A stretch of DNA of 64,000 nt, from contig JABLUY010000039.1 in NCBI GenBank assembly GCA_013306675.1, positions 62,001 to 126,000 of the forward strand. The letters are read 5' to 3'. Below the pieces are notes generated by a model, which did not search any database, was not told the origin of the DNA, and saw nothing but the letters and a program-made list of their open reading frames with translations. This document shows, in pieces, positions 23,342 to 47,356 of this stretch. The translations under genes and the position numbers were made by a program. This DNA is from Thraustochytrium sp. TN22 (lineage: Eukaryota > Sar > Bigyra > Thraustochytrida > Thraustochytriidae). Numbering within the stretch: position 1 is the first letter of the stretch; each line of letters opens with the position of its first letter.

Positions 23342-26300
23342 ATGGCTCGCCATGGCCCTTCAAGAACTGGGTCCTCGCGCCGGGCCCACGCCCCGCCGCC
23401 CGCGCCGCAAGCTGCACCAGACCTGCAAGGCGATCAGCAGCACGCAAGCAAGGGGAGCGGGGGCGGCAGCATGCGGCGCAGCGTGCGAAAGAGCCTCGGC
23501 CGCCTCGCGCGGCGTGCCATCGGCGCGACCGGCACCGTGGCGCGGCGCGCGTCCAGGCACTCGGCCGAGGCGACCCCGCAGACCGAGCAGGAGCAGCAGC
23601 AGCAGCAGCCCGAGGAGGAGCAGCAGCAGCAGTCAGAGCTTGAGCAGCAGCGCGAGGAGGAGCAGAAGAAGGCCGGCGAGGCGCCTGGCGGCGATGACCC
23701 GGCCGACGAGAAAGCCGTGGTGAGCGCCTCGGACGTGCTCGACATCACGGGCAAGAAGAGCGAGGAGGTCGCGCGCGGCTCGGCGCGCCGCGTGGGCCAG
23801 GACGAGGACAACCTGAGCAACAATATCGTATGGTACCGCGGAGTCAGCGTCGCCGCGCTGCAGACCATTTGGCAAGACATCCTCATCGGGGAACGCGCGC
23901 CGGGCGTCCAACTCTACGTGCTCACGGAGAACGTCGACGCCACCGACAACACGGGAAACAAGACGGGCACTGTTAAAGCTGGCTGCACCGCCGCGCTCTT
24001 GCGAGCCCGCGCCCGCGCCGATGGCAAGCTCATCGGCAAGGTCCCCAGGGTCGACGGCAAACTCCTCTTCTTCCCTCACCAAGCCACGCCCAAGGACAGG
24101 GTCGACTGGACCATCGAGGACGTCTGCGAGTACCTCGTGCTCCCCGAAACCCTTCGCGAGAGCCGCTTTTATCTGGAGGTCCTGCTCGATGAAGCCGACG
24201 ACCTCGTCGGCGAGCCCTTCAAGGGCGCCTTCGTCAGCCAAGCGCGCAAGTGCCGCTTTGGCGAACTCCTCCAAGCCATCGTCGCGCACTACACCGACCA
24301 GGGCAGGGACCTTCGCACCACTTTCGTTTGGCTCGATATCTTCTGCGCCAACCAGCCCAAGCTCGCCAACAAGGACACAGACCTCTCGCGCGAAATCTGT
24401 GAGCAGCGCGACGACCTCCTCACGCACGGCCTTCACGCCGCCATCGAGCGCTTCGACGAACGCCTCATCTTCTTCGACAAGTGGGACAACCCCTCGCCCC
24501 TCACGCGCATGTGGTGCGTCTGGGAGATCTACGGCGCCGTCAACTGCGGCAAGGTCCTCGAGCTCATCTTCGCGCCGGGCCAGGACCAACGCTTCATCCA
24601 GCTCATGGAGGACGAGACGCCCGAAGCCATCACCATGGCGCTCTCCAAATTCGACCTCGCCAAGGCGGGCTGCAACGGCGACGCCGATCGCAAGATGATC
24701 ACGGACGCCGTCCACGCCCTGCCCGGCGGCTTCCACCACCTCAACTGCGTCGTGCTCGAGCAGCTGCGCTTCTGGCTCGCACAAACCGCGCGGCGCATCG
24801 TGGCCTCTCGCGTTAAAAGTGATGGAAAGACGCTAGAGGTGGCAAACCTCATGCACAGCGTCGCCTGGCTGCTGCAAAACCAAGGTCTCTATGAGGACGC
24901 CCTCGACCTCCACCGGCAGTCGCTCAAGATCAAGTTGACCAAGAAAAAACCCAGCCACCCGAACTTGCTGGCGGCGAAGCACAACATCGCCACTGTGCTG
25001 CATGACATGGGCCAGTACAAGGCGGCGCTGTCGCAGTACCAGGAGGTGCTGGAGCAACAAGTGGAGCAGCTCGGGCCGACGGACCGTGACGTGCTGAACA
25101 CGAAGCATAACATCGCCAATGTGCTGCGGGACATGGGCCAGTACAAGGCGGCGGCGGCGCAGTTCAACGAGGTGCTGGAGCAACAAGTGGTGCAGCTCGG
25201 GCCGACGCACCCTTACGTGCTGACGACGAAGCACAACATCGCCCAAGTGCTGCAGGCCATGGGCCAGTACGAGGCGGCGCAGGCGCAGCTCAACGAGGTG
25301 CTGGAGCAACTAGTGGAGCAGCTCGGGCCGACGCACCCTCACGTGCTGATTACGAAGCGCAACATCGCCGACCTGCTGCGGGACATGGGCCAGTACGAGG
25401 CGGCGCTGGCGCAGCTCAACGAGGTGCTGGAGCAAAAAGTGGAGCAGCTTGGGCCGACGCACCCGTGCGTGATGACTACGAAGCACAGCATCGCCCTAGT
25501 GCTGCAGGACATGGGCCAGTACGAGGCGGCGGTGGCGCAGTTCAACGAGGTGCTGGAGCAACAAGTGGAGCAGCTCGGGCCGACGCACCCTTACGTGCTG
25601 ACGACGAAGCACAACATCGCCCAAGTGCTGCAGGCCATGGGCCAGTACGAGGCGGCGCTGGCGCAGTTCAACGAGGTGCTGGAGCAACGCGTGGAGCAGC
25701 TCGGGCCGACGCACCCGTCCGTGCTGACGACGAAGCACAACATCGCCGGCGTGGTGCAGGCCATGGGCCAGTACGAGGCGGCGCTGGCGCAGTTCAACGA
25801 GGTGCTGGAGCAAAGCGTGGAGCAGCTCGGGCCGACGCACCCTGACGTGCTGACGACGAAGCACAGCATCGCCCAAGTGCTGCAAAACATGGGCCAGTAC
25901 GAGGCGGCGCTGGCGCAGTTCAAGGAGGTGCTCAAGGGATTTGTGGAACAGCTCGGACCGAACCATGAGTACGTCGCGGAAGCGAGCTACAACATCGCGC
26001 TGACTCTCTGCGACCTCGCCCGCTTTGGAGAGGCGCTCCCGTTCGCGGCGAGTGCCCTTGAGATCCTCACGGGAACCTTCGGCGCATACGCGGAGCACCC
26101 GCAAGTTGGCTTCGCGTACCTTGCCCAGGGGCGGGCGTTGCTGGGTCTCGGTCGCTATGGAGATGCTGTTGCGTCGTTGCAGCGTTCGCTGGCCATCCGT
26201 GAGGCGTGTTTGGGTTCGGACCACCCAGCTACGGCCGCCTCGCAGTACTACGTCGCTGAGGCGACTCACGATGTGTCGCTCGCGGCGCTGGCGCTGGCGA

Positions 26301-26933: not shown

Positions 26934-29546
26934 CTACTCAAGGGTCACCAGGGTCCTCATCATGGCTTTGTCCGCGCGAGGCGATGGCAGACGTAGCCTA
27001 TCCAGCACGCTCGGCATCCACCTGTTGTTGGGAAATCTGTCGAACGCCGCCTTGACAGCCGACTTGGCGCCAAACCTCCTAAGCGTCGCCCTCGCGGTGC
27101 TGCTCTGCGACGCCGCATTGTCAATGAGGTGACAGCCAGCCTGCTGGACTTCCTCGTCATCCACGTGCAAGCGCATGCTCTCGATGACGTCCGGCAGCAC
27201 GTAGAGGTCCTGTACAATGATCAACATGTTGCGGACGTCGCAAGTGAAGTTGCGCAAGGCGCCTAGGACGGATGCCACCACCGCTGCCGAGGCCATGTGT
27301 TTGTGCAGCGCCGCAGCGAGGGGGGCGCCGGCTTCATCGTGTTGGACGAGCTGCACGGCGTTTCTCGGCACGGCCGCCAGATTCTGCAACACGCCGGCGG
27401 CGGTCGTCTGCAGCACTTCATGCTCCGGGTGCCGTCGCATCGCAGCCAACACGACGGGGCCGGCCTCGATCTGAAAGGTCAGATGCGCTGCGATGTCATC
27501 GTCAATGGAGAAGTTCCAGAGGCCATCGCAACCCTTGACCTGCACCTCGGCATTACCCGCGTGTGCGCGCATCGTCGCGAGAATGGCCTCACACACCTGC
27601 AGACTTCGGGCAAGTAGCACAACGTTCTTGTGGCTGTCGAACGTGAACGGGGTCATGACCGCGCACGTTGCGCACACCAGGCGCGGGTCGTCGTTATGTG
27701 TGCGCATGAGCTCTAGCACCGTGGCCCCAAGCATGTGATGCTGGACCGCCGCTTCGCGAAACGAAGACCCTCCAGGACCCGTCAGGACGAATCGAAGCGC
27801 CCACACGGTCGCCGCTAGCACTTCAACACGCGTGTCCGTCTCCAGGATACGCCGCAGGGACGAGAGTACGCCACGCGACAACGCTGACAGGCGCAGCGAG
27901 TCGTGCCCAGCCACCGCCCCATCGACGTCCCGCTCGCGCTCGCTCTCGCAGATCTCTCGCAGCGCTTGGAGCGTCCGCAAGCGATCGCCCGCGTCTTCCT
28001 CGAGATCCCGCACGAGGCCGATAATCGTGCTCCGGTCAGGCGGCGCCGCGGCCTGCGCCTCGCCGCGACGCCACCTCCAGAACACCAGCGAGCTGGCCAG
28101 CCCGCGCAGCACGCTCGCGGACCGCCGGCTGCTGCCGCTGTCCACAAAGCGCTGCAGCGCCTCCAACGCGCGCGGTCGCTCCTCCGGCTCGTGCTCCCAG
28201 CAGGCCTCGATCAGCCGCAGCACCCAGCCTGCAATGCCCTGGCCGTCCGGAGCAAGCGCAGGGCGTTCGCCCTGCAGGACACGCGACGCATCGAAGTCGC
28301 CGGCGAACGGCGTCTCTTGGTGATACACTTGCCACGCCACGACCCCGAACGAGTACATGTCCGCGCACGAGCTCCACAGCGCGGGCGCCTGCAGGACTTC
28401 AGGTGCCAGGTACCGCTGATCGGCCGCGGTCGCGTCTGCGTCCAGGAGGCCAAAGCCCGACAGCTTCACCAGGCCCCGGTCGCGGCTCACGAGCACCTTG
28501 TCGGGCTGCAGCTGCCCATGCATGGCGCCCTGCTCGTGCAAGTACACCAGCCCCCTCGCCACCCCGCGCATGATCGCGTCTCTGTCATCGAGCGAGAGTG
28601 CCTGGATCGCCTGGGTCTCGTCGCGGCCTGCGCTAACGTCCTCGTCCAGGAGCTCCTGCAGCGAGATGTCGCCCCGCTCCATGACGATCGCGAAGGAGTC
28701 GGACACCATGCAGCTCCCAAGGAGGCAGGCCAGGTTGGCGTGCTCGAGCCCGCGCTGCCGCTCAACCTGCTGCTCCGCCATGGCTTCCTGCTCGGCGAGC
28801 GCCGCTGCGACGCTCACAGCCACCTCTGTCTCCTCTTCTTGCCGCAGCACGGCCGCCAGGACCTCCCCAAACCTGCCTTTGCCGAGGACGACGCGCGGCT
28901 CGTGCAGCGTCACCTGCTCGCTCTGCAGCGAGACTGCCTCCGCGATGCGCGCATGGCGCAGGCCCACGAGCGCCTCGCCCTGCGGCTCCCCGCCTGCGGC
29001 CGCGACGAGCTCGGCCTCGTCCAGGCCGTCCAGCGCTGCAGCCGCGCCCTGCGCGCGCAACTCGCGCACGGACTCGGCCAGTTCACTCCTCGCGTCCGCG
29101 GCATCCTCTGCGTCCTGGCGGGCCTCCTCCGCCGGGTCGATGCTGCCGTCGCCGAGCCTCACGTCCACCCGCGCGAGCCGCGCCGCGTCGCGCACGCACT
29201 GCTCTGCGGCGACGAGCGCGTTGCGTTCCTCCTTGGCGGCGACCAGCTGCAGCGCCCTCGCGGCCGGGCCCTGCGCCCTCGGCCGCACGAGCTGCAGCAC
29301 CTTCCTCGCGAGCGCCTCCACGCGCCACGCCGCCGCCGCCGCGCCCGAGTTCCTCGCGCCCGCGCCGTCGCCGCCGCCCTTCTTGCGCGCCTCCAGCGCG
29401 CTCGCGAGCTCCTCCAGCGCGTCGCCCACGCGCGCGCCCCTCCGCCGCCACCCGCGCGCGCCGCGCGCCGCCGCCGCGGCCAGCCGGGCGGCCTGCGCGG
29501 CGCCCTGCGCGGCGGCCTGCGCCTGCTCCTCGCCCGCGCGCGCCAT
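26934..29546 (-). CDS. Pseudokinase-armadillo repeat protein 1
   Basis: The product has 870 residues from ATG 29546. The frame is open up to 29822, but that extension runs into a tandem repeat. Residues 1-200 are Ala/Arg-rich helices. A protein kinase fold spans about 210-490: glycine loop LGKGRFGEVLAAV (about 215), helix C, hinge IVMERGDISLQELL, AMHGQLQPDKVLV (about 339), KLSGFGLLD (about 362), YLAPEVLQAP and DMYSFGVVAWQVY. Three catalytic residues are missing: VAVK is VAVS, HRD is HGQ and DFG is GFG. It is therefore a pseudokinase, probably a binding or allosteric module. The C-terminal half (about 520-860) is armadillo repeats of the type ILATMRAHAGNAEVQVKGC. The adjacent gene is a paralogue with the same order. 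In this layout the repeats could sense a partner and the pseudokinase relay the signal; that role is inferred. Confidence 0.88.
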   Translation of the reverse strand: MARAGEEQAQAAAQGAAQAARLAAAAARGARGWRRRGARVGDALEELASALEARKKGGGDGAGARNSGAAAAAWRVEALARKVLQLVRPRAQGPAARALQLVAAKEERNALVAAEQCVRDAARLARVDVRLGDGSIDPAEEARQDAEDAADARSELAESVRELRAQGAAAALDGLDEAELVAAAGGEPQGEALVGLRHARIAEAVSLQSEQVTLHEPRVVLGKGRFGEVLAAVLRQEEETEVAVSVAAALAEQEAMAEQQVERQRGLEHANLACLLGSCMVSDSFAIVMERGDISLQELLDEDVSAGRDETQAIQALSLDDRDAIMRGVARGLVYLHEQGAMHGQLQPDKVLVSRDRGLVKLSGFGLLDADATAADQRYLAPEVLQAPALWSSCADMYSFGVVAWQVYHQETPFAGDFDASRVLQGERPALAPDGQGIAGWVLRLIEACWEHEPEERPRALEALQRFVDSGSSRRSASVLRGLASSLVFWRWRRGEAQAAAPPDRSTIIGLVRDLEEDAGDRLRTLQALREICESERERDVDGAVAGHDSLRLSALSRGVLSSLRRILETDTRVEVLAATVWALRFVLTGPGGSSFREAAVQHHMLGATVLELMRTHNDDPRLVCATCAVMTPFTFDSHKNVVLLARSLQVCEAILATMRAHAGNAEVQVKGCDGLWNFSIDDDIAAHLTFQIEAGPVVLAAMRRHPEHEVLQTTAAGVLQNLAAVPRNAVQLVQHDEAGAPLAAALHKHMASAAVVASVLGALRNFTCDVRNMLIIVQDLYVLPDVIESMRLHVDDEEVQQAGCHLIDNAASQSSTARATLRRFGAKSAVKAAFDRFPNNRWMPSVLDRLRLPSPRADKAMMRTLVTLE

Positions 29547-29720: not shown

Positions 29721-29760
29721 CGGGCCCGGGCTCCTTCGCTGCGCAGGCGGCCCGCGGCCG

Positions 29761-30170
29761 GTCGTGACGACGAGATGTGCTGCGCAGGGGCGCGACCTCG
29801 AGCGCGTGCCGCTCCAGGGCAATCAATCACCTGCTCTTCGCCATCGATGCGGACTCGGACTTCGGGCTCGGCCGCCTTCACCCTTATCACGACCGCCTTC
29901 ATCTACTCACTGCGAGATAAAGGCAGACCGCGCTCGGTCGTGATGATGAGATGTGCTGCGCAGGGGCGCGACCTCGAGCGCGTGCCGCTCCAGGGCAATC
30001 AATCACCTGCTCTTCGCCATCGATGCGGACTCGGACTTCGGGCTCGGCCGCCTTCACCCTTATCACGACCGCCTTCACCTACTCACTGCGAGATAAAGGC
30101 AGACCGCGGTCGGTCGTGATGATGAGCTCTGCTGCGCAGGGGCGCGACCGCGAACGCATGCCGCTCGAGG
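29761..30170. repeat. 176-bp tandem repeat, two full copies and a partial third
   Basis: Units start with GTCGTGA at 29761, 29937 and 30113, a spacing of exactly 176 each time. The third copy ends after about 58 nt. Copies 1 and 2 are almost identical, including GGGCAATCAATCACCTGCTC and GCGAGATAAAGGCAGACCGC. A 23-nt piece of the unit (GCGACCTCGAGCGCGTGCCG plus CTC) also occurs near 29608, just upstream of the proposed pseudokinase 1 start. The array thus appears to have grown from the gene's own 5' region. Confidence 0.9.
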
Positions 30171-30376: not shown

Positions 30377-32941
30377 TTAGTCGAGCAGCTCGATGGTTGG
30401 TTGGCCAGAGGAGTTGCGATGCCGACGCAGAGCTGTTAGAGCGGCGCGAGGTGCACCACTGTGCGGAAACCGGTCGCGCGCCGCCTTTACAAGGGGCTTG
30501 GCGCCCAGGCGGAGAAGCGTCACCTGTATCGTGGGATTTTCGGCGAGGGTGGCGAGGAGATTGCAGGCAGAGCTTTGCAGTTCGTTCGAGTCCGGGTGTG
30601 CCCGCATAGCTGCAAGCACGTCGCTGCCGAGGTAGACCTGCTCGGCGAGGCGCTCGGCGCTGCGCGGCTCCATGCAGAGGACCCAGAGGACGTCACAAGC
30701 AGCCTTCACGATGCTCTGCGTGTCAAGGTGAGCACGCATGGCCGCTGCAATTTCAACGCCAGCGTTCAACTCGCACGCCAGGGTGTACTTGTTGACCGCA
30801 TCGCAAGCCATGTTTTGCAGGGCGAAGCAGGCGAGCTCTTGGAGGTGGGCGTCTTCCGGATGTGCTCGCATCGCTTCCAGAACGACCGAGCCGACGTGCA
30901 TTTCCTGAGCGAGGACCGTGGCGGTGCGCGAATCGATGGCAATGTTCATCAGAGCAATGCAGGCGGCCGCCAGCACCTTGCCGTCGGCCATGTGCGTGCG
31001 CATCGCCACGGCAACGTCGGTCCCTATGCGGAGCTCCAACCCGACGATCTGCCTGTTGCGCTCGTCGTCCACCGTAAAGTTGGCCAGCGCGGTGCACGCG
31101 CGCAGCTGCAACGGGCCGTTGCTTGGATGCATGCGCATGGCCGCGAGGATAGCTTGAGACGCACGCAGCTCCTGAACAAGCTGGATGCGGTTGCGGTGAA
31201 TATCATAGGTGCAGGCGGTCATGACGCCGCATGCAGCCATCTGCAAGTCGGCGCACTCGGGGTGCGCGCGCATCAGTTCCAGCAGGAGCGGCCCGAAGCC
31301 GTAGGTCTGCATGGCCGCGGTGCGGTGCATCATGCCGCGGGCGCCGGTCAGCGCGAATCTGAGCACCTGGACAATACCCGCGAGCCGGTCCGGGTCCTCC
31401 TCGGCCAACATCAGCCGCTTTAACGTGGCGACAATACCCCTCGCACGGGCCAGCTCGCGAAGTTCGTCAACGTCCGAGTTCTCCGCATCCATGTCGTACT
31501 CATGCTCGAAGGTCTCGGCCAGCGCCGCCAGGGTGCGCACCATGTCGGTCTCCGCGTTGTTTGCAATGTCTTGCAGGAGCCCCAGGACCGTGGCAGCAGT
31601 GGCTTCTGCAGCGCCACGCGCCTCGCCGCGCCGCTGCCGACTTGCCATGACGCGGCTCGCAAAGCTGCGCAGGAGACCCATCGACCGCCGGCTCGTGCCG
31701 CGCTCCACACACTGCTGCAGCGCCTCTGCCGCCGCCGGCCGCTGCGGCGGGTCGTGCCTCCAGCACTGCTCCACGAGGCGCAGCGCCCACGCCTCGCCCT
31801 GCCCCGGCTCCAGCGCCGGCCGCTCGCCCTGGACCACGCGATCGGCGTCAAAGCCCGAGTTCTCGTAGGGCGGCTGACCCTGCAACACCTCCCATGCCAC
31901 CATACCGAATGAGAACATGTCGGCGTGCGAGCTCCAACGCACAGGCGCCTGGAGAGCTTCCGGCGCCGTGTACGGGCTGGGCGCGTCGCCCGGCGGGAGA
32001 GCGAAGCCGCCGAGCTTGACCCGGCCCAGGTCGCGGCTGAGTAGCACCTTGGCGGGCCGCAGATTGCGGTGCAAGACGCCCTCCCCGTGCAAGTACGCGA
32101 GCCCCCGCGCCATGCCGCGCAGGATCGAGTCCTTGTCGTCACGGGTGAGCTGCTCCAGCTCCGCAGAGTCCCCCCCCTGCCGCTGCGCGCTCAGCACGTC
32201 ATCCAGCGTCAGGTCGCACAGCTCCATGACCACCACGAAGCGGCCGTCCACCTCGCAGGTGCCCAGCATGCCCACCAAGTTCACGTGGTCCAGCGAGCGC
32301 TGCAAGTTCGCCTGCTCCACCAGCGCCTCCTGCTCGGCCGCCTCGTGCGCGCGTTTGACTGCCACGGGCGACTCGCCTGACGACGCCCACGCGAGCACGC
32401 CGGCGACCACCTCCGTCCCGAAGCGGCCCTCGCCGAGGACGACCTCGGGCTCGCACACGCGCACCCGCTCGCTGGCGATCTCGGCGTCCGTGCAGACGTC
32501 CGCGTCCTCCTCCTCCGCCTCCTGGCCTTCGTCGCGGTCCTCCAGCTCCTCGTCCAGCACTCCGCGGTCCTCGTCCCCCGCCACCTCCTCTACGTCCGCG
32601 GGCGGCAGGTCCACCTCGCACACCTTGGCCAGGCCCAGCACGGCGTCCTCCACGTCCTCGAGCGCCCGCCGCTGCTGCGCTAGGTCCAGCACCTCGCGCA
32701 ACCTCGCCTCGACCATCCACGCCTCCTCGCCGCCGCGGGCGCCGCCCGCGCCGCCCGCGAGCGCCGCGGCCACGGCGTCGAGCGCCGCCGCGGCGCGCCC
32801 CGCGCGGGCTCGGCCCCCCTCGCCGCCATGCTCGCGCCGCGCGCCTCGCAGCGCCGACCCCGCGCCGCGCGCCAGCCGCGCGAGCGCGGCCTGCGCGGCC
32901 TGCGCAGGCTGCGCGGCCTGCGGGCCCGACGCGCGCCGCAT
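30377..32941 (-). CDS. Pseudokinase-armadillo repeat protein 2
   Basis: The product has 854 residues from ATG 32941; 92 more codons are open upstream but run through short repeats. It has the same layout as its neighbour: Ala-rich helical N-terminus, kinase fold about 160-440, armadillo repeats about 470-830. Here the glycine loop is LGEGRFGTEVVAG and the ATP-site Lys is kept (SPVAVKRAHE, about 195). The catalytic loop is VLHRNLRPAKVLL, with HRD changed to HRN (about 290), and DFG is changed to GGF in VKLGGFALP (about 308). It could bind nucleotide but is unlikely to phosphorylate. TAPEALQAPVRWSS and DMFSFGMVAWEVL mark the activation-segment end and helix F. Armadillo units read VLEAMRAHPEDAHLQELAC and similar. 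The pair is a tandem duplication that lost different catalytic residues, so neither is a recent copy. Confidence 0.88.
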   Translation of the reverse strand: MRRASGPQAAQPAQAAQAALARLARGAGSALRGARREHGGEGGRARAGRAAAALDAVAAALAGGAGGARGGEEAWMVEARLREVLDLAQQRRALEDVEDAVLGLAKVCEVDLPPADVEEVAGDEDRGVLDEELEDRDEGQEAEEEDADVCTDAEIASERVRVCEPEVVLGEGRFGTEVVAGVLAWASSGESPVAVKRAHEAAEQEALVEQANLQRSLDHVNLVGMLGTCEVDGRFVVVMELCDLTLDDVLSAQRQGGDSAELEQLTRDDKDSILRGMARGLAYLHGEGVLHRNLRPAKVLLSRDLGRVKLGGFALPPGDAPSPYTAPEALQAPVRWSSHADMFSFGMVAWEVLQGQPPYENSGFDADRVVQGERPALEPGQGEAWALRLVEQCWRHDPPQRPAAAEALQQCVERGTSRRSMGLLRSFASRVMASRQRRGEARGAAEATAATVLGLLQDIANNAETDMVRTLAALAETFEHEYDMDAENSDVDELRELARARGIVATLKRLMLAEEDPDRLAGIVQVLRFALTGARGMMHRTAAMQTYGFGPLLLELMRAHPECADLQMAACGVMTACTYDIHRNRIQLVQELRASQAILAAMRMHPSNGPLQLRACTALANFTVDDERNRQIVGLELRIGTDVAVAMRTHMADGKVLAAACIALMNIAIDSRTATVLAQEMHVGSVVLEAMRAHPEDAHLQELACFALQNMACDAVNKYTLACELNAGVEIAAAMRAHLDTQSIVKAACDVLWVLCMEPRSAERLAEQVYLGSDVLAAMRAHPDSNELQSSACNLLATLAENPTIQVTLLRLGAKPLVKAARDRFPHSGAPRAALTALRRHRNSSGQPTIELLD

Positions 32942-33510
32942 CCCCCTGCCGCGAGCGCGCCGCGAGCGCGCCGCGAGCGCGCGGGATGGAGGTTTGGAGG
33001 CGCCATCCCGCGGCGCGAGCAGGCGGAGAGCGCCCGGCACGTGCTCGCGCGCGTGCAGCAGCACGACGCGGCTCGCCAGGCCTGCAGGGCATGGAAGCCG
33101 TGCACCGATCACGGCGCAGCTCGTTTGCGGGGCACGCGGCGCAGCCGCTGCACGAATCACGAGGCAGCTCGTGCGCATGACGATGCAGCTCGTGTGCAGG
33201 GCACGCAGCCACTGCACGGATCACGATGCAGCGCGCGTGCGTGGCATGCAACCAATGCACCGATCACGATGCAGCTCGCTGCAGCCATCCAGTCAGGCCT
33301 GTCTTCGAGATCGACATTGCCTGATGGGCTTCCGGGGGCGCTCGCCTTGATGAGAGTCGAGACCGAGGTCCGCATCCGTGCGAGCGCGACCTGGGAGTCG
33401 GCGGTGGCTCGAGCGGATACCGTGCGTCTGCTCCGCGCGTATCCTCTCGTTGCACTCACGCTCGCCAAGGTCCAAGGAAAGGTGCTTGCTCAGAAAATTT
33501 ACATTGCGGC
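32942..33510. other. Flank with short ATCACGATGCAGCTCG-type repeats and a segment duplicated near 38 kb
   Basis: Five imperfect copies of GATCACGATGCAGCTCGT occur at about 33107, 33156, 33181, 33221 and 33261, upstream of pseudokinase 2. From about 33300 to 33545 the sequence matches 37850-38105 (for example TCGCCAAGGTCCAAGGAAAG in both). That segment is the 3' flank of the TIR-armadillo gene on the left and of its paralogue on the right, so the duplication extends beyond the coding region. Confidence 0.7.
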
Positions 33511-36500: not shown

Positions 36501-36894
36501 GATCCTTGATTTGGCGAGCAAGCTCTAGTTGGGAAATACTCGCGACCTTGTCGGGGCCAAGCTCCGCCCTTGCCGCCTGAAAGGCGAGACTCAGGCGTTC
36601 AGCATCGGCGGCCAAGTTCATCGTCCTGTAAGGCGTCGCCAGCAACTCGTGGCCCCAGGCCAGCCACCCCTGTTCGCCCGCAGCCTTGGGTGTCCAGACC
36701 TCGCAGATGCCCTGCATAAGCGCGACGAGCTGCGCGACAAGGACCTCCTCCGCCTCCAAGGGCCGCAGCAGCGCTGCGGCCTGCTCCAGCGTCTGGCTCA
36801 GCTCCAGCGCGTCCTCGCGGAACACCGTGGCATCCTTGAGACTCCTGGCGGCCTCGTCCGCGCGCGCGGCCAGCTCCGCGTACGGCCCCCTCAT
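33511..36894 (-). CDS. Armadillo repeat protein with C-terminal TIR domain
   Basis: The product has 1127 residues. Residues 1-180 form a helical domain (MRGPYAELAARADEAARSL, later CEVWTPK). About 190-880 is a run of armadillo-like units of roughly 42 residues, for example VILQAMRAHRSDPTIQAKAC. A TIR domain lies at about 905-1035: box 1 AFDVFLSHAWGE, then YHIRCWLDQREAPRKSGHEI, VIVIFVTRSYMDKVN and YCKAEFNYI. The C-x-x-E of the last block fits the position of the NADase Glu in SARM1 and plant TIRs, so NAD cleavage is possible. The tail contains RRSQPTSLSPLGSLAQ and ends RVSRRLPAD, shared with the paralogue to the right. SARM1 also joins armadillo repeats to a TIR, where the repeats restrain NADase activity. 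A similar autoinhibited design is inferred here, but the repeat type differs and no SAM domain is visible. Confidence 0.9.
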   Translation of the reverse strand: MRGPYAELAARADEAARSLKDATVFREDALELSQTLEQAAALLRPLEAEEVLVAQLVALMQGICEVWTPKAAGEQGWLAWGHELLATPYRTMNLAADAERLSLAFQAARAELGPDKVASISQLELARQIKDPNFRAKALHHVYEELRRAANCDELREVCLRYKQPGGVLAKVQKVVRSGKVSDPRLLAVALWVLSYLYAGQEGRDLCRRAVRPAERVLELMGTHQRHADLQAAACAFLAVCTEHDRQNQRTFQRDLQAGHHVMDAMREHPSDPIVLAHACAAVGNLALGKGNASQLGLDLYIGEVILQAMRAHRSDPTIQAKACRALYALARDARSATVLMELGAGAGILESMRGHQDASDVQEEACKALQELSRARTDHAEYLGALKVDGCIIEAMRRHRDDSKVQAQACGALGYLAVTDDICISIGQTNSAGPDIIRVMQSFSKDATAQANAWAALESLASCKRIRLHLATRLHKAANACVFAVLRRHLRHRDVQAHACAALCMLAANCEAAQLLREKTDACHYVLDCIREHMDDPGVVMYASGALAALAGNDTTAGSLPLETYDVVISTVDHTSHDGVKSACLHLLSKLPQGTQDHDRGAYAAALEAISQLDSSADVVKSALEVLGALAARHHCEDEDAVSPSTFDCILAHMCIYDQQADIQVAGLETLTRLIRQTGHYQEQLCRRPDCSDVILQTADFHLRVPEVQRHVCEVFAVLTRSEENAAALGHLPEIGDAVLYAMREHQADTVLQHHAWCARLHVARHEGCRHLLGPEQKAGETIVEAMRQHATSAEVQESGCRTLEVFAADPSVSTCLTPNSCFVRTVLEAMRRFRRNERVQARACGALAALAADAKHRSFLACNPVKSAVKKARDQFKDLAEPQRAMDSLFPPLNQTPHPTSKAFDVFLSHAWGEAPEYETHKVVAKVAEALELDYHIRCWLDQREAPRKSGHEIHDVLAKGIDDSEVIVIFVTRSYMDKVNGPVSKDNYCKAEFNYIRSRGKRMIPCVLEEAMTSQNTWTGAFGMGTCNLLYARMTSGGTTEEIATLAERLREAVDDSQAARAAETVVPKRRSILRFPASSPRAAADRRSQPTSLSPLGSLAQAPLAALPASGRADRVSRRLPAD

Positions 36895-38077: not shown

Positions 38078-41000
38078 TCAGTCGGCAGGGAGACGGCGGC
38101 TCACGCGCTTGGCGCGGCCGGAATCCGCGAGAGGCACTCTCGCGAGAGAACCGACGGGGCTGATACTTGTGGGCTGCGACCTGAGATCCATGGCCGGACT
38201 CGGAGAAGCTGAGGTCGAAGTTGAGGTGCGCAGATTGCTCTTCATCTTCATCTTCGAAAGCGATGCTTTCGCTGCTGCTGGGGCTGGGGCTGGCGACGAG
38301 TCGCCGATGACATCGTAAATGCGATCCGCAAGTCTGGCAATCCCCTCGGAGGTATTGCCAGCGAGAAGGCGCGTGACGTGCCGGTTGCTAAACTTTGCGC
38401 CGAAGACCCCCCACCATGCGCCGGTGTCTGCCATCTCCACGTCCAGTACACAAGGGATCATGCGCCGGAGCTTGTGCTTCGTCTGGATGTAGGCAAAGTC
38501 GGCCGTGCACTTGTCGTCCTCAAAGTTGTTCACCTTCTCCATGTAGCTGCGGGTCACGAAGATCACGCTCGCCTTGGAGTTGTCGATGCCACGCGTCCTG
38601 GCGCCTTGCTCCGCGCCTTGCGAAAGCGGTACCTCGGCCTCGTCCAGCCAGCAGCGGAGGTTGTACTTGCGTCCCAGCTCCGTCGCAATCTCCTTGATCC
38701 TTGCGCTCGTCTCGGAGTCTGGTCCTCCGGCGTGCGAGAGAAAGACATCATGCAGCTCCGTGGTGTAGGCTGGTAGTGAAGCTGGGTTGCGAGCAGGACA
38801 GAACCTCTCCAGCGCGCGCTGGGGCTCTGAGTGTGCCTTCAACCTTTTGCACGCCCGCTTGACGAGAGCCTTTGCTCCGAGCGAAGAAAGAAAGCTCCGG
38901 CTGTGCGCATCTCTGCCCAGTGTTGCGAGGGCGTCGCACGCGCAACGCTGGAGGAGGACGTCTGTTTCGAAGTCCTGCATGGCGCCAAGGACGGCGCCAC
39001 CTGCTTCCTGCTCCTGGACGAGGATGATCGATGTGCGCAAGTCCGTAGCAAGCGCCCGTAGCGCGCCGCAGCCAGCAATTTGCACGAAGCGGTCGTCCCT
39101 GTGCGTGCTCATGGCTGCAATGACATCTTCGCCGGCTCGTTGTTCGCGCCCGAGAGACTGGCAATGATCTCTGAGACGCGCGATGTGTCGGATTGCGTGG
39201 CACGCGTGCACCTGCAGCACGGCGTCCTTCGGGAAAGCACGCATGGCGCCGAGCACAGCTTTGCCTAGGCCGTGCAGATCGTCGAGAGAGGCTGCGTTGC
39301 GCTCGCTCTGCGTTAGAGAGGCGACGATCTCGCACAAATGGCACTGGATGCCGACGGACTTGCAGTAGCTTGTCGCAATCCGAAGAAGGACCTCGCCATA
39401 GGCGGGCTGGCCACAGAAAAGATCCTGGTAGCTCGGCTGGCGAACGAGCTCACTGAGCAGCTCCAAGGCCGCCATCTGCACCTCAGCTTGCTGCGGATTC
39501 GCGTGCACGACTTCGAAGATGGAGTCGAGGGTCCCAGCGTCCAATCCCTCGCCTAGGCGCTCGCGAGCGGCGATTTTTCGTAGGGCCTTGAGTGCCTTCG
39601 CGCGCCTGGTGTGACCCAGGTCGGTCTTGCGGGCAGCCTCGTCGGGCTTTCGGGCAGCCTCGCCGGTCTTGCGGGCGGCCTCGCCGATCTTGCGGGCAAC
39701 ATCGCCGGTCTTGCGGGCAGCCTCGCCGGTCTTGCGGGCAGCCTCGCCAGTCTTGTGTACGCGGTCAAGGTTTTCACTGGGCACTCTGGGCGTGCTGACG
39801 AGACGCACAGCTGCAGGCTGCTCGCCGACGTCAGAGAGGTAGTCGTCCGAGCGCTCGGCAGCCATGCTTCGCATTTTACGTGCATGGGATCTCGCGCCGG
39901 TGGACTTGGCACCGCCAGCAGCGGGAGCAATCCGCGATTTGCGAGCCGCGGGTGTGGAGGGGCGCGGCTTGGGAAGCACGGGCGTCGAAGAAGGCGGTCC
40001 GTGAGTTGCGGGCGGCGAAGGGCGCGGCTTGCGGGGCGCTGACGTGGATGTGTGCGACTTGCGAGGCCCGGACGCGGAAGGTCGCGAAGTGGAGGGCAGG
40101 CGCGTGCTCGACAGATCCGTAGGCATCACTGGCGTACTCGGCAGTGCCGTAGAGGTCATAGGCCTGCTTGGCAGAATCGTGGAGGGTGCGGGCGTGCTCT
40201 GCAGAACCGTGGAGAGCATGGGCGTGCTCTGCAGAACCGGGGAGGCAGGACGTGAGGTTTGAAGGCGGCTGCTCTTTCTCGCCAGGGTGGAGTCGCCCGA
40301 CTCCGTCCTCCTCGTGGTTGTCCTCCTTGGCCTCTCCGTCAGCGTAGGACTTGCCCTGGTCCTTTGTTCAGCCTGGTCTGCCGTGTCAAACTCGGTGAAA
40401 ATGCGGTTCGCGAGCCTGGTGACCTCACTCGTACTGCCGCCGTCGAGCATTTTTGTGATGCGTCGATCGCCTACTGTATAGAGCAGTTTACCGTCCCACG
40501 TTTTGGGGTCGGCCATGTCTGCCTCGAGGGGGCAGAAAATCATCCGCGCACGCGTGTGCTTCCTAATAATGTATTGAAGCTCGTCCTTGCAGAAGTCCGA
40601 TTCGGAGTCCTTCGAGTTCACCTTGTCCATGTATTCGCGTGTCACGAAGATGACGCTCCCCTTGGACTGCTCGATGCCTTCCCTGATTCCGTCCGAAATA
40701 TCGCGGGTTGCGGTGGTGCCGCGCGACAGCTTGTCTTCGTCAAACCAGCAGCGGATGTTGTGCTTGGATCGCAGCTTCTTCGCAATGGACTTGACCGCAT
40801 CGTGTGTCCTGCCCTTCTCACCCCAGGCGTGTGCGAGAAAGACGTCGTACTGCGGACCTGCATGTGTGGTCGGTGCAGGGTCAGGGTGGAGCTTCGCGAG
40901 CGCGCGCTGGATCTCTTCGCGATTCCTGAATCGTTTACTTGCCACCTCAACGGGATGCTTGGCGTCGATATTGAGCAGAAAATCGCGGTTTTCTGCGTCT

Positions 41001-43585
41001 GCGGCCAGCGACGCGAGCGCCTCGCACGCGCATGACTGAAGACGCACATCTGTACCGAACTTTCTCATGGCGTCCAAAATGGCGTCGCCGGCGTGTTGCT
41101 CCTGGACGAGGATCGTTGAGACGCGCGCATTGCTCCCCAGCTCTTGCAGTGCACCGCAGCCGGCACGTTGCACGGACAGGTCGGCCTCGTGGGTCTGCAT
41201 GGCCTTGACGACCTCTTCTCCCGCCCTTTGCACGTCCCCAAGGTAGCCCGGGCCGCTCTCACTCAGCTCGCCGGTGTTGTCGAGGCGCGCGAGGCTGCCC
41301 AGTGCGAGGCACGCGTTCGCCTGGAGCGCGGGGTCATCCACGTTTGCCTTCATGGCGCGGAGCACCACTTTGGCCAACTCCTCCAATTGGTCAGGGGCAA
41401 TACAGGCTGCGTTCTGCCCATTCTTCGTGAGAGCAGCAACGATCTTGCACGCACGCCGCTGAATGCGGATGTCTCCTCGGTGGTTCTCAGCAGCCTGGAT
41501 GATGGCCTCGGAAATGTCGGGCCACTCACAGAGGAACTTCTGGTAGGCTTTGTTGTGGGCGATGTTGTCGAGCAGATTCCACGCGGCGACCTGCACGCCA
41601 GCATCCATCGCGTGTGGATGCAAGCTGCCCAGGATCCTCTCAAGCGTCGATTCGTTCAGGACCGTGCGGAATTTGACAGGTTTGATGCAGCTGGCGCCCC
41701 GTGCGAGGACGGCGCAGGCGTTTTGGACCACCTTGGCACAGCCGGGACGTTGCAAGGCCGTAGTGGCGGCCGCGCACGCCTGGCGAAGTTGCGCCAGACT
41801 CGAGTGAGGAAGCTTGGACAGGAGACTCAGCGCGGCGGCCTGCACGCCATCGTGTTGGAGGTGGTGATGTCTGATCTTCAGGACAGCAAGGTAGGTCTCG
41901 GTACCGAGGGCTTCCGCGACGCGGCTGATGCAGGCAAGAGCAGACAGAGCGCCGCACGCATAAACGATGACGGCTTGATCACCCTCGTGCTCCTTCATGG
42001 CAGCGAGAATGCGATTCTTGACGACTTCCCTCATCGGAACCAGACTCTGCGCTGCGTCAGGCGTCGACGCCAGCGCCTCAAGCGCTGCACAGGCGTTGGC
42101 CTGGATGTAGGGGTTCCGCGCATGTCTCTGGAGGCCTTCAACGGTGCCTCTATGCTTCTGCAGCAACTCGGCAAGATTCACCCGATTGGGCGCGTGCTTG
42201 GCGAGGCTCCAGATGGCGGCCCAGCCATTGGCTTGCACTGTCGCATGATCCTTGAAGGTGTTCATCGCCGCCACGATTGACGCTCCTGCGCTGTGCACCT
42301 GCCCGATGGACGCGCGGGCCGTTCTTGTGACTGCGAGTTGCCACAACGCGCCACAGGCCTGCGCCTGAATGACGCAGTTGTCCGAATAATCCCGCATGGT
42401 CTTGACAACGCAGGCGTGGAGCTGCAGTTCGCCGAGCTGCGTCGCGATATCGACATGGGCGCTCGCCAGCCGCCACAGCGCCTTGCACGCCTCCTCTTGT
42501 ACGCTGTGGACAGTCGGGTGAGTGCGCATCGCGTCGCTGAGCTGTGCTCCAGCGCCGCTGACCATGAGCATCTTGGAGTTGCTTGCTTCGATCGCGAGAG
42601 CATCAATGGCCCGGCACGCCTGGGCCACGACGGAAGGAGCCCGTTTGTGCTGACGCATGGCCTGGACGACCCGCATACCGATATGGGGCAGCGCGCCTAG
42701 TATCACCGCATTGCCCTCGCCCAGAGCGAGGTTGCCCAAGGCGGAGCAAGCGTGCTCCTGCACTGCTTCGTCGGACACGTGCTCGTTCATGACGCTCAGG
42801 ATCACGGTGCCCGCGAAGAGTTTTTGCTGGAAGTCCACCTTGTTCTGGTGGCTCCTCTGCGTACACGCGGCCAAGAAGGCGCAGCCCGCAGCTTGAAGGC
42901 TTGCATTGCCCATGTGCATTTCCATGTGCAGGAGGGCACCCTCAGCTTGGCGAATGGCGTCCTTGCAGCGGTCCTTGCCCTGCCGACCTGAGCAGCCAAA
43001 CGTGAGCACCCAGAGTGCATCTGCGAGCACGTCCGGGTCTTCTAAGTGGGCGGCCCTCACGATCTCCTCAACCGCTGCGAAGACGCCATCTCGCTGGTAC
43101 CTGAGGCAGACCTCGTCGAGGGTAGTTGTCCCGGCCCTGGAGGCAGTCTTCAGTTCGTCGTGTGCCCCGTCGAGCGCTTTGCTCCTAAAGTTCTTGTTCT
43201 CGATGTTGCGAGCGAGCTGTATGCACTGCAAGTCAAATTTGCCCTGTTCCAGGCGATCCTTCGCGACTCCGATGGCGGTGTTCAAGCGATCCGACTCTGC
43301 GCGCAGGTCCCATATTTTCAGCGGCATCGTCGCCACGCCACCCACCCACTCAAGCCAGCCCTGCTCGCCCTGCATCCTCGGTGTCCAGACCTCGCAGACA
43401 TTCCCCACCCTCTCCACGAGCTCCCCCACGATGGGCTCCTCCGCCTGCAGCGGCTCCAGGAGCGTCGCTGCCTCGTCCAGCACCTTGCTCAGCTCCAGCG
43501 CGTCCTCGCGGTACACCTTCGCGTCCCGCAGGCTCGTCGCTGCCCTCCTCGCGCGCGCGGCGAGCTCCTCGTACGGGCCCTTCAT
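38078..43585 (-). CDS. Double armadillo-TIR protein (ARM-TIR-linker-ARM-TIR)
   Basis: The product has 1835 residues and no intron is needed. Residues 1-180 are a helical domain matching the neighbour (MKGPYEELAARARRAATSL; CEVWTPR). About 190-890 are armadillo units. TIR 1 spans about 910-1045: QYDVFLAHAWGEKGR, CWFDEDKLSRGTTATRDI, VIFVTREYMDKVN, DFCKDELQYI with the putative NADase Glu. A disordered linker (about 1050-1330) has Ser/Thr/Pro units (LPSTP type) and six or seven ARKTGEA units. A second, shorter armadillo block (about 1335-1600) follows, then TIR 2 at about 1609-1748: LHDVFLSHAGGPDSETSARI, VIFVTRSYMEKVN, KCTADFAYI, where the Glu position is Asp. The tail again ends RVSRRLPAD. The most natural origin is duplication and fusion of an ancestral ARM-TIR unit. 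TIR 2 may be a scaffold rather than an enzyme. Confidence 0.9.
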   Translation of the reverse strand: MKGPYEELAARARRAATSLRDAKVYREDALELSKVLDEAATLLEPLQAEEPIVGELVERVGNVCEVWTPRMQGEQGWLEWVGGVATMPLKIWDLRAESDRLNTAIGVAKDRLEQGKFDLQCIQLARNIENKNFRSKALDGAHDELKTASRAGTTTLDEVCLRYQRDGVFAAVEEIVRAAHLEDPDVLADALWVLTFGCSGRQGKDRCKDAIRQAEGALLHMEMHMGNASLQAAGCAFLAACTQRSHQNKVDFQQKLFAGTVILSVMNEHVSDEAVQEHACSALGNLALGEGNAVILGALPHIGMRVVQAMRQHKRAPSVVAQACRAIDALAIEASNSKMLMVSGAGAQLSDAMRTHPTVHSVQEEACKALWRLASAHVDIATQLGELQLHACVVKTMRDYSDNCVIQAQACGALWQLAVTRTARASIGQVHSAGASIVAAMNTFKDHATVQANGWAAIWSLAKHAPNRVNLAELLQKHRGTVEGLQRHARNPYIQANACAALEALASTPDAAQSLVPMREVVKNRILAAMKEHEGDQAVIVYACGALSALACISRVAEALGTETYLAVLKIRHHHLQHDGVQAAALSLLSKLPHSSLAQLRQACAAATTALQRPGCAKVVQNACAVLARGASCIKPVKFRTVLNESTLERILGSLHPHAMDAGVQVAAWNLLDNIAHNKAYQKFLCEWPDISEAIIQAAENHRGDIRIQRRACKIVAALTKNGQNAACIAPDQLEELAKVVLRAMKANVDDPALQANACLALGSLARLDNTGELSESGPGYLGDVQRAGEEVVKAMQTHEADLSVQRAGCGALQELGSNARVSTILVQEQHAGDAILDAMRKFGTDVRLQSCACEALASLAADAENRDFLLNIDAKHPVEVASKRFRNREEIQRALAKLHPDPAPTTHAGPQYDVFLAHAWGEKGRTHDAVKSIAKKLRSKHNIRCWFDEDKLSRGTTATRDISDGIREGIEQSKGSVIFVTREYMDKVNSKDSESDFCKDELQYIIRKHTRARMIFCPLEADMADPKTWDGKLLYTVGDRRITKMLDGGSTSEVTRLANRIFTEFDTADQAEQRTRASPTLTERPRRTTTRRTESGDSTLARKSSRLQTSRPASPVLQSTPMLSTVLQSTPAPSTILPSRPMTSTALPSTPVMPTDLSSTRLPSTSRPSASGPRKSHTSTSAPRKPRPSPPATHGPPSSTPVLPKPRPSTPAARKSRIAPAAGGAKSTGARSHARKMRSMAAERSDDYLSDVGEQPAAVRLVSTPRVPSENLDRVHKTGEAARKTGEAARKTGDVARKIGEAARKTGEAARKPDEAARKTDLGHTRRAKALKALRKIAARERLGEGLDAGTLDSIFEVVHANPQQAEVQMAALELLSELVRQPSYQDLFCGQPAYGEVLLRIATSYCKSVGIQCHLCEIVASLTQSERNAASLDDLHGLGKAVLGAMRAFPKDAVLQVHACHAIRHIARLRDHCQSLGREQRAGEDVIAAMSTHRDDRFVQIAGCGALRALATDLRTSIILVQEQEAGGAVLGAMQDFETDVLLQRCACDALATLGRDAHSRSFLSSLGAKALVKRACKRLKAHSEPQRALERFCPARNPASLPAYTTELHDVFLSHAGGPDSETSARIKEIATELGRKYNLRCWLDEAEVPLSQGAEQGARTRGIDNSKASVIFVTRSYMEKVNNFEDDKCTADFAYIQTKHKLRRMIPCVLDVEMADTGAWWGVFGAKFSNRHVTRLLAGNTSEGIARLADRIYDVIGDSSPAPAPAAAKASLSKMKMKSNLRTSTSTSASPSPAMDLRSQPTSISPVGSLARVPLADSGRAKRVSRRLPAD

Positions 43586-44896: not shown

Positions 44897-47356
44897 TTAG
44901 ATGGTCTTGGCAACGGGCTCCGCCTTGCGCAACCTGGTGAGGCAGTTCTGAGGTTGCGCGAGAGCGGGGAAACTAAAGGTGGCCTTCTTGACGAGCGTGG
45001 TGGCCTTTTCCTCGCGCAGAGACTTGAGCGTGGGGTCGTGCATGGCGAGCGCCTCGAGGGCGCTGCAGGCTCGCGCCTGCACGGCCTGGACCTTCTCGTG
45101 TTTCTGCATGGCCTCGAGGATGGCTCGGCCTGCTTCGAGGCCGAGCAGCCGTTGGTTCGCGTCGTTCTTCTTGGCGAGAGCGCCGAGCACATGGCAAGCG
45201 GCTTCCTGGACCTCGCTGGTCTCGCGGTGGGCGCGCATGGCCTCCAGGATGACGGCCCCGGCGCCCAGGTCCTGGCCCACAATGTCGCGGTTCTGCTCGT
45301 CCCTGAGGACCAGGTCGCGCAGCGCCCTGCATCCATGCACCTGGACGAGCGCGAGACCCTTGTGGCGGCGCATTGCGGCGAGGATGAGTGAGCCGGCGTC
45401 GAGCACCTGGCCGAGCACCATGGCATTTGTCTCGGTCTTGGCCAGGTGCTCGAGGGTTTCGCAGGCGATCGCCTGCAGCGCGCCATCGTCCTGATGCGCG
45501 CGCATGGCCGCGAGGATGCGGGCCCCGGCAGGGAGCTGCCCGAGGGAATCCTTGTTGGCCGGGCTCACCGCGAGCCTGCGCATGACCCCGAGGGCCTTGA
45601 CCTGAAATGGGCCGTTCCTGGCATGCGTGCGCATGGCCGCAAGCACGAGCTTCCCGGCGCCATGCAGCTGCTCAAGATCCTCGGCATTGCCGTCGCTGCC
45701 GGCGAGGCTCTCGAGGGCGGCGCAAGCGTGCTTGGCCACCCCGGCGTCGAGGGCGTGCTCGCGCAGCGCGTCCAGGATGCAGGCGCCCACGCGAAGGTTC
45801 TGCTCCAGGAACGCGAGGTTGGCTGGGTTGGCGGCAAGCCTGCGCAGCGCACGGCAGGCGTTGACCTGCACGGGGACGCTGGCCTTGTGTTCGCGCATGG
45901 CTGCAAGAATGGCCTTCCCCGTTGGCCCGCGCAGGCCCAATGCCACGAGCCGGCTGTCTTCCGCGGCCAGCTTCCAAAGCGCGGCCCACGCGTTGGCCTG
46001 CACCGTCGCGTCTGCGCCCATGTGCTGCATGGCCAGACAGATGTCTGAGACGCCCTCTTGCTTGTGAAGGATGGCGGCTCTGTTGCCTTCGTGGCGCGCG
46101 AGCTTCCAGAGCGCCCCGCAGGCGGCCATCTGCACCTTGCAGTCCTTGCGGTGCGTCCGCATAGCCGCCAAGATGTCGGCCTCGGCGTGCAGCTTCTGGC
46201 CGAGCGCCTCCGCCTGGGTGGCCGCGAGCGCTTCCAGTGCGTTGCACGCAAAGGCCTGCAGCTCGGCATCCTCGCGGTGCGCGCGCATCGCCTCGAGGAC
46301 ATCCTGGCCGACATCGATCTCCGTGCCCTGCGCCATCAGCCGCAAGGCCTCGCACGCCTTGGTCTGCAGCTCGAGCCTACTGCGATGCTGGCGCATGGCC
46401 TGGACAATATCGGTGACTGCGTCGCCGAGGCTCTGCGCATGTCCCGGAGCCGCAGCGAGTTCTGCCAGCAGCGTGCACGCCCATGTCTGCGTGTCGTGGT
46501 CTGCTCCGTGCGCTCGCATGCCGGCTTGTACGAGCGCGCCGGCATTGAGCTGAACGAAGATGCTCTTGTTGTCGTCGTGCCCGTTCGAGCAGGCCGCGAG
46601 AAAGGCGCAGGCCGCGGCCTGAAGGCCGGCGTGGTCGGGGTGCTTCTTCATCAGCCTCAGAGCTCGGCGGCCGGGACCCCGGGGCACGGCAGCGCGCTGG
46701 CACAGACCGTCGCCCTGCTGACCGAGGCATGCGATTCGCAGCACCCAGAGCGCAGAGGCTTGCGCCGCGGCGCTCTTTAGCCTCTTCTCGCAGAGCTCTG
46801 TCTCCGCCGTCTGGAACACCCCGCCGGGCTGGTGGTAGGAGTTCACGAGCTTCTCAAAGCGTGCTGCGCCCTTGACGGTCCTCGCAGCCTCGAGCTCCTG
46901 GCGGGCCCTCGCCAGCGCATGCTCTGCGTCTCGAACATCGCGGATGCTCTTGACCATTTCGGTGCGCTTGTGATTCTCCAGCACTTTCGTCATGGCGGAC
47001 TGTTGCCGCAGCATGATCAGCTGGAGCGCTTGGAGGAGCTCGGACTTGGCCTGCACGAGCGCCGCCTTGCGGCTGTCGGCGGAGACATACCCAAGCATCG
47101 CCTCCCAAACCCCAGCCTCCTGCGGCGTCACGAGCCTTTCCACCTTCTGCAGCTTCTCCTCCAGTGCGCTCACATCCATGCCGTCGTCCGTGAACGTGTC
47201 CAAGGACTCGGTCACCTGTTGCAGCACCTCCCCCACTTCGCGCTTCTCCGTGGCGTAGCCATCCACCGCCTCGAGCATGTTCCGGATGGACTGCAGCGTA
47301 CGGAGCACGGTCTTTGCATTCTTGACCGTCAGCACCTGCGCAAGCATCGTTGCCAT
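44897..47356 (-). CDS. Armadillo repeat protein without TIR, related to the TIR-armadillo genes
   Basis: The product has 819 residues from ATG 47356; an Arg-rich extension to 47479 is open but unconvincing. Residues 1-200 are long amphipathic helices (KNAKTVLRTLQSIRNMLEAV, then EVGEVLQQVTESLDTF) followed by a brace-like helix, a layout that recalls the HeLo/MLKL N-terminal four-helix bundle. That likeness is by eye only. The junction block matches the TIR proteins: PGGV, ALWVL, then HAGLQAAACAFLAACS against HADLQAAACAFLAVCT. About 15 armadillo units follow (ILAAMRAHQDDGALQAIACE type). The protein ends PVAKTI, with no TIR or kinase. It may be a partner or decoy for its paralogues, or its helical head may be the effector. 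It is read in the same direction as the four genes to its left. Confidence 0.88.
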   Translation of the reverse strand: MATMLAQVLTVKNAKTVLRTLQSIRNMLEAVDGYATEKREVGEVLQQVTESLDTFTDDGMDVSALEEKLQKVERLVTPQEAGVWEAMLGYVSADSRKAALVQAKSELLQALQLIMLRQQSAMTKVLENHKRTEMVKSIRDVRDAEHALARARQELEAARTVKGAARFEKLVNSYHQPGGVFQTAETELCEKRLKSAAAQASALWVLRIACLGQQGDGLCQRAAVPRGPGRRALRLMKKHPDHAGLQAAACAFLAACSNGHDDNKSIFVQLNAGALVQAGMRAHGADHDTQTWACTLLAELAAAPGHAQSLGDAVTDIVQAMRQHRSRLELQTKACEALRLMAQGTEIDVGQDVLEAMRAHREDAELQAFACNALEALAATQAEALGQKLHAEADILAAMRTHRKDCKVQMAACGALWKLARHEGNRAAILHKQEGVSDICLAMQHMGADATVQANAWAALWKLAAEDSRLVALGLRGPTGKAILAAMREHKASVPVQVNACRALRRLAANPANLAFLEQNLRVGACILDALREHALDAGVAKHACAALESLAGSDGNAEDLEQLHGAGKLVLAAMRTHARNGPFQVKALGVMRRLAVSPANKDSLGQLPAGARILAAMRAHQDDGALQAIACETLEHLAKTETNAMVLGQVLDAGSLILAAMRRHKGLALVQVHGCRALRDLVLRDEQNRDIVGQDLGAGAVILEAMRAHRETSEVQEAACHVLGALAKKNDANQRLLGLEAGRAILEAMQKHEKVQAVQARACSALEALAMHDPTLKSLREEKATTLVKKATFSFPALAQPQNCLTRLRKAEPVAKTI

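Follow-up and report, generated by a model that had tools for sequence, protein, structure and literature searches.

Genes and layout of the locus

The window analyzed here is the whole stretch of 64,000 nucleotides from Thraustochytrium sp. TN22 (contig C331:62001-126000), with a GC content of 61-73% in 2-kb blocks; genome-wide searches covered 37.9 Mb in 453 contigs. Six long open reading frames (ORFs) lie in its positions 23342..47356. Genes 2 to 6 are consecutive on the minus strand, are separated by gaps of 332-1311 bp, contain no internal stops, and have GC fractions of 0.45-0.50 (second codon position) and 0.72-0.85 (third codon position). At the level of architecture, these five genes form one family with the layout head-(kinase or pseudokinase)-ARM-(TIR), in which ARM stands for armadillo repeats and the modules in brackets vary between members.

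23342..26422, plus strand: gene 1, TPR_12 protein whose head looks TIR-like (Pfam TPR_12 1.2e-88), judged to be outside the family
26934..29546, minus strand: gene 2, head + pseudokinase + ARM, 870 aa (ORF, Pfam, kinase tree)
30377..33178, minus strand: gene 3, head + pseudokinase + ARM, 933 aa as listed, the family start probably being Met80 at position 32941 (ORF, Pfam, AlphaFold)
33511..36894, minus strand: gene 4, head + ARM + TIR, 1127 aa (ORF, Pfam, AlphaFold)
38078..43585, minus strand: gene 5, head + ARM + TIR + ARM + TIR, 1835 aa (ORF, Pfam)
44897..47356, minus strand: gene 6, head + ARM, 819 aa (ORF; Pfam ARM_LRRK2 5.1e-27)

Pfam identified a kinase and ARM in genes 2 and 3, ARM and TIR_2 in gene 4, ARM plus two TIR_2 stretches in gene 5, and ARM alone in gene 6. 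At E <= 0.1, it assigned no NTPase family to genes 1 to 6 (for gene 1, among the best 25 of 32 families). A sequence-only reading of this DNA had described a cluster of six adjacent large genes without a visible NTPase, comprising one TIR-like+TPR gene, two pseudokinase+ARM genes, one ARM+TIR gene, one ARM+TIR+ARM+TIR gene, and one gene with a helical head and ARM. The six ORFs, the missing NTPase, the two kinase domains without their catalytic Asp, and the ARM and TIR order of genes 4 and 5 were all recovered, and the general picture of receptor-like proteins with a common sensor and swappable modules is supported for genes 2 to 6. The head and ARM of gene 6 are likewise present, but this head is common to all five ARM proteins rather than particular to gene 6. 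Because it occurs in all of them, the layouts of genes 2 to 5 have to be extended to head+pseudokinase+ARM and head+ARM+TIR.

Gene 1 was ruled out as a member of the cluster. It lies on the opposite strand and has no ARM, and Pfam confirmed the TPR part of the earlier description but found no TIR in it. Its head, which has no Pfam name, gave 114 matches genome-wide including itself, seven others being 78-82% identical. Gene 1 is thus a member of a dispersed TPR family that stands beside the cluster by chance.

The surroundings also contain a 176-bp tandem repeat between genes 2 and 3 (29745-30170; 2.4 copies, 94%), a gene for a class 3 seven-transmembrane receptor (7tm_3) not far from the cluster (7401-10565), and a TPR locus at 48406-50371 with around 13.7 copies of a 126-bp unit, where two overlapping frames are open over long stretches, possibly because a TPR gene carries a frameshift or an assembly error.

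Heads, kinases and TIR domains

The head is a helical domain of around 120 aa that opens the kinase-ARM genes found elsewhere in this genome (L040-L045), in Hondaea, and in further relatives. A profile built from 10 such kinase-type heads was compared with the N-termini of the window genes.

29172..29546, minus strand: gene 2 head, alanine-rich (32.4 bits, 0/2000 shuffles)
32621..32914, minus strand: gene 3 head, four predicted helices (AlphaFold; 17.6 bits, 0/2000 shuffles)
36505..36894, minus strand: gene 4 head, helices predicted with low to modest confidence (25.4 bits, 0/2000 shuffles)
43196..43585, minus strand: gene 5 head (19.3 bits, 0/2000 shuffles)
46967..47356, minus strand: gene 6 head, putative 4-helix-type domain (30.9 bits, 0/2000 shuffles)

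The scores of 17.6-32.4 bits compare with 8.1-10.9 bits for the best of the 2000 shuffles of each head, which allow for the alanine-rich composition of the heads of genes 2 and 3, and with a maximum of 7.3 bits for 125 controls, of which three were reversed heads and 122 were tiles cut from genes 1-6 and from three ARM-only genes elsewhere on the contig. When one canonical head was searched against the whole genome, 13 matches were obtained at E <= 1, its own gene included, and 10 of them fell in ARM genes: all six kinase-ARM genes including the query, a head-ARM gene on contig C418 (E 0.002), gene 2 (E 0.005), gene 6 (E 0.07), and gene 4 (E 0.19). The remaining three were a frame of 89 aa on C376 (E 4e-5), a stop-containing stretch beside the L040 gene (E 0.03), and one match with E 0.75; genes 3 and 5 were absent from these matches. 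As a single query, the gene 6 head found itself and genes 4 and 5 only at E <= 0.001, and no kinase-type heads. Alignment of the two head groups using hhalign gave a probability of 91.5% over 63 columns and 83% end to end.

In the AlphaFold model of gene 3, the head consists of helices at model residues 10-37, 41-62, 71-86, and 91-107, with block pLDDT values of around 55-78, and the head of gene 4 is modeled with less certainty. The only kinase outside the family whose N-terminus matched the head profile (E < 0.01; best 120 of 3606 kinases) was P0046, which carries the only MLKL_N domain among the Pfam matches listed for these 120 (4.8e-20) and whose MLKL_N head scored 14.5 bits over the full length of the profile, a value reached by 0/2000 shuffles. 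Conversely, Pfam MLKL_N matched one of 15 family heads (E 0.0078), EXOC6_Sec15_N scored better than MLKL_N in two of the 15 (best 0.0014), MLKL_N was absent from the Pfam results of seven full-length relatives at E <= 1, and a genome search with MLKL_N found no head and one other place (E 0.10). Since Pfam MLKL_N does not call them, an assignment of the heads as MLKL_N by sequence was rejected. A search of solved structures with the head profile gave no convincing match, the best being to a short part of GldM (E 0.019), and in the fold searches with the models of genes 3 and 4 the best 50 VIA matches each span the ARM part and barely probe the head. Taken together, the four predicted helices and the match to P0046 make it somewhat more probable than not that the head is 4HB-like.

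The kinase and TIR modules of the window are as follows.

28152..28889, minus strand: gene 2 pseudokinase (VAVS, HGQ, GFG; PF07714 5.1e-29, motifs)
31712..32440, minus strand: gene 3 pseudokinase (VAVK kept, HRN, GFA; PF07714 3.8e-33, motifs)
33709..34182, minus strand: gene 4 TIR, Glu995 kept (Pfam TIR_2 5e-12, alignment)
40361..40852, minus strand: gene 5 first TIR, Glu1002 kept (Pfam TIR_2, alignment)
38264..38752, minus strand: gene 5 second TIR, Glu changed to Asp at residue 1696 (Pfam TIR_2, alignment)

Both kinases lack the Asp of HRD and of DFG, and that of gene 2 also lacks the Lys of VAIK. Lys, HRD-Asp, and DFG-Asp are intact in eight of 14 aligned family kinases, the degenerate ones being those of genes 2 and 3, L044, L045, P0005, and P0006; the P0046 kinase was aligned alongside and is not included in the count. 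The best solved-structure relative of the kinase by sequence is LRRK2. The kinase tree pairs genes 2 and 3 as sisters (100/99) and places four kinases of Hondaea in a separate clade (100/100); therefore, the two groups represent separate kinase expansions.

TIR_2 was called above the Pfam cut-off in genes 4 and 5, and the catalytic-type Glu is kept in two of the three window TIRs in the alignment. The kinase and TIR parts of the AlphaFold models (genes 3 and 4) are poor, including the region between the third and fourth predicted strands of the gene 4 TIR, where Glu995 lies on a helix. When at least 123 TIR_2 places in the genome were compared by eye with at least 97 ARM places, genes 4 and 5 were, among these matches, the only ones with ARM and TIR in one ORF. 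Ten loci with similar TIRs were examined, and Pfam, run on five of them, showed COR-A in L005, L010, L011, and L014 (the last also with Roc) and a PDZ-TIR protein at L008; for L006, L007, L009, L013, and L015, the COR type is suggested by sequence only. A protein search with gene 4 returned one ARM-C2 protein (E 7.4e-6) among 7995 scored candidates, and a search with the TIR region returned none of 1626 candidates at E <= 0.001. The TIR tree gives no support to a single capture of a TIR domain, the three window TIRs grouping together in 0% of 200 bootstrap trees, with long branches. Elsewhere in the genome, G000:C160:1247-4627 contains four TIR matches of equal score, 1043 bp apart and with one TGA inside each, which appear to be broken TIR copies arrayed in tandem.

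Armadillo repeats and history of the cluster

The ARM repeats have a period of mostly 43-45 aa and precede the TIR in genes 4 and 5. Their best solved-structure relative by sequence is LRRK2, and in structure comparisons the AlphaFold models of both gene 3 and gene 4 gave matches to solved armadillo proteins.

34225..36357, minus strand: gene 4 armadillo solenoid (AlphaFold; Foldseek/VIA matches LRRK2, Vac8, beta-catenin, importin alpha)
44927..46774, minus strand: gene 6 armadillo repeats, the shared N-cap first (Pfam, repeat period, tree)

Variability within the repeats was compared over their first 22 positions in 13 proteins, namely genes 3 to 6, L040-L044, two of the distant C331 genes, L047, and L048; gene 2 and L045, among others, were outside this set. 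In all 13, pN was higher at positions 9, 13, 16, and 20 than at the other 18 positions, and this set ranked between 6th and 338th of 7315 four-site sets (270 in gene 3, 41 in gene 4, 15 in gene 5, and 7 in gene 6), with L040-L042 not counting as independent, since the positions were picked after viewing these three. According to the helix limits of the AlphaFold model of gene 3, the four positions map to the third helix of the repeat. In importin alpha, the third helix of each repeat lines the peptide groove. The pN/pS ratio at the groove positions is around 1.0-1.6, many substitutions are saturated, and pS is zero in L047; no claim of positive selection is made. Outside the groove sites, pN is lower than pS in genes 3 to 6. 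The raised variability of the groove could also be explained by relaxed constraint on exposed residues.

The repeats of the window genes are divergent. Near-identical ARM repeats occur elsewhere in the genome, at L042, L046 (C422), L047 (C34), and L048 (C44). L042 has four identical repeats consecutively, and one with a single change, and the L046 protein has a weak LRR match upstream of its ARM, unlike the window genes. Around 66 kb from the cluster, G000:C331:12422-23177 holds three tandem ARM-only genes of 1208, 805, and 1302 aa, whose first ARM caps form one clade (100/100).

The sequence-only reading had named, as a result that would refute it, a tree in which the ARM repeats of the five proteins do not group together. 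Genes 4 to 6 do group, their N-caps forming one clade (100/99) that includes gene 6 though it has no TIR. Genes 2 and 3 take no firm place, which weakens that reading in part, and all five regions fall into a single group in 24% of the 200 bootstrap trees, a value obtained against six distant C331 caps only. At the DNA level, genes 4 and 5 are 66% similar from the TIR to beyond the stops (33327-34285 vs 37877-38864), and within gene 5 an ARM-TIR segment is duplicated (38528-39354 vs 40616-41469, 62.6%). The ARM clade, the similarity of genes 4 and 5, and the internal duplication indicate that tandem duplication, accompanied by gain or loss of modules, built up the cluster. The tails of genes 4 and 5 (33511-33693 and 38078-38260) are nearly identical, although for most of their length the two proteins share around 42% identity; a functional motif or a conversion tract may account for the tail.

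Relatives were found at other loci and in another thraustochytrid. The same genome has at least six head-kinase-ARM genes (L040-L045), four of them with intact kinases, as well as the C418 gene, which has a head (29.7 bits) and an ARM match, and in whose translation no kinase was seen on reading. The closest named kinase-ARM relatives, among the best 120 of 3606 kinases, are P0002, P0004, P0005, and P0007 of Hondaea fermentalgiana (Thraustochytrida), which has its own kinase-ARM expansion. In P0002, head-kinase-ARM is followed by mitochondrial carrier domains, and the protein bears the name of a transporter; annotation may have merged two genes here. The relatives are thus multi-copy, expanded within lineages, and equipped with a kinase, a pseudokinase, a TIR, or no module, and not single conserved housekeeping genes with fixed partners, in agreement with the sequence-only reading. 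A literature search, based on best-ranked titles and the starts of abstracts and with subscription literature mostly outside its scope, found no description of this family and no paper joining thraustochytrid, armadillo, and TIR domain.

Possible function and comparison with known systems

We propose, with a probability of roughly 0.4, that genes 2 to 6 encode an NTPase-free family of receptors acting in cell death or defense. In such receptors, the variable concave groove of the ARM solenoid would take up a ligand, perhaps a metabolite or else a protein or peptide of host or foreign origin, and the solenoid would keep the effectors quiet until ligand binding released them. The putatively four-helix head may then oligomerize or move to membranes, as MLKL and HeLo proteins do, the pseudokinase may act as a regulatory switch similar to that of MLKL, and in genes 4 and 5 the TIRs may cluster and cleave NAD in the manner of SARM1. 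Cell death or a defense signal would follow. A more specific version, in which thraustochytrids combine an MLKL/HeLo-like four-helix executioner, an ARM sensor with a diversifying groove, and an MLKL-like pseudokinase or SARM1-like TIR NADase at one locus as intracellular, NTPase-free immune or death receptors and so unite necroptosis-type and SARM1-type logic in one family, is held more tentatively.

Many ARM proteins are scaffolds, and it is quite possible, if short of an even chance, that genes 2 to 6 belong to a general signaling or scaffold family, with the ARM as a docking platform, the head as a bundle for localization or dimerization, and ordinary kinases and TIRs without a role in defense or death. 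The solved relatives of the ARM (LRRK2, Vac8, beta-catenin, and importin alpha) and of the kinase (LRRK2) fit this explanation, as does a genome rich in repeat proteins, including the family of gene 1 and the numerous ARM matches. However, housekeeping scaffolds less often show lineage-specific expansion into multiple copies, arrangement in tandem clusters, kinases that have degenerated repeatedly, and modules exchanged between members.

Loss of function after duplication is improbable as an account of the cluster, even though catalytic residues are gone from both kinases and from the second TIR of gene 5 and part of the head alignment is missing in gene 3. Five long ORFs have stayed open with a codon-position GC bias, and the excess of pS over pN outside the groove also argues against decay. 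Pseudokinases, moreover, commonly serve as working regulators. Similarly improbable, in our view, is a system of allorecognition similar to that of the fungal het genes, in which near-identical, exchangeable ARM repeats would generate specificities and a mismatch would trigger death. Its attraction lies in L042 and L047, where ARM repeats are identical or one residue apart, resembling the WD40 repeats of the fungal HNWD genes, which undergo concerted evolution (PMC12881547), but the divergent repeats of the window genes do not fit this pattern.

If the receptor proposal is true, a stramenopile only distantly related to animals, plants, and fungi would have its own receptors made from the same death modules, namely a 4HB-type bundle, a pseudokinase, and a TIR, with armadillo repeats as the sensor and no NTPase. 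This would provide a testable case for convergent or shared cell-death logic in eukaryotes, and an ARM-TIR protein without SAM would be useful for asking why SARM1 needs its SAM domains.

Genes 4 and 5 are similar to SARM1 in having ARM followed by a C-terminal TIR, and the NADase Glu is present in gene 4 and in the first TIR of gene 5; this Glu is required for NADase activity in other TIRs (PMC7075850), and TirC of Dictyostelium is also an NADase (preprint, PMC13142454). Members of the SARM1 group contain SAM, Arm, or both (PMC7075850), whereas Pfam found no SAM in genes 2 to 6, an additional N-terminal head is present, and similar TIRs of this genome are mostly on Roc-COR proteins. With MLKL and plant MLKL/Pm13, the family shares a helical N-terminal head followed by a kinase or pseudokinase, the latter being present in genes 2 and 3 and no such domain in genes 4 to 6. 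The weak full-length match to the P0046 MLKL_N head adds to the likeness with MLKL, and HeLo/MLKL domains offer a precedent for the head (PMC12881547). Pm13 combines MLKL_NTD with an intact kinase (PMC10951266), similar to the eight family members with intact kinases. The family differs from MLKL in its C-terminal ARM solenoid and in heads that Pfam MLKL_N does not call.

LRRK2 and ROCO proteins are linked to the family as the best solved relative of both ARM and kinase and through the related TIRs on Roc-COR proteins of this genome, but Pfam found no Roc, COR, LRR, or WD40 in genes 2 to 6, and the order is kinase-ARM instead of ARM...kinase. In choanoflagellates, TIR is joined to armadillo domains in multiple species (PMC6040629); the relevant part of that source describes no shared head for the ARM/TIR and kinase-TIR proteins, and the kinase and TIR of the window are located on separate genes, unlike those of the kinase-TIR proteins.

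The sequence-only reading had regarded the cluster as an analogue of NLR clusters. The likeness to NLR/STAND proteins lies in the tripartite logic of an N-terminal effector-like domain and superstructure-forming ARM repeats in clustered, expanded genes. No NACHT, NB-ARC, or AAA domain was found in genes 1 to 6, however (Pfam, E <= 0.1; for gene 1, best 25 of 32 families), and because this defining NTPase is absent, the cluster is not filed as NLR, SARM1 and MLKL/Pm13 being closer working models. Thus, the family resembles SARM1, MLKL, and Pm13 in its parts and the NLRs in its logic, and is filed under none of them.
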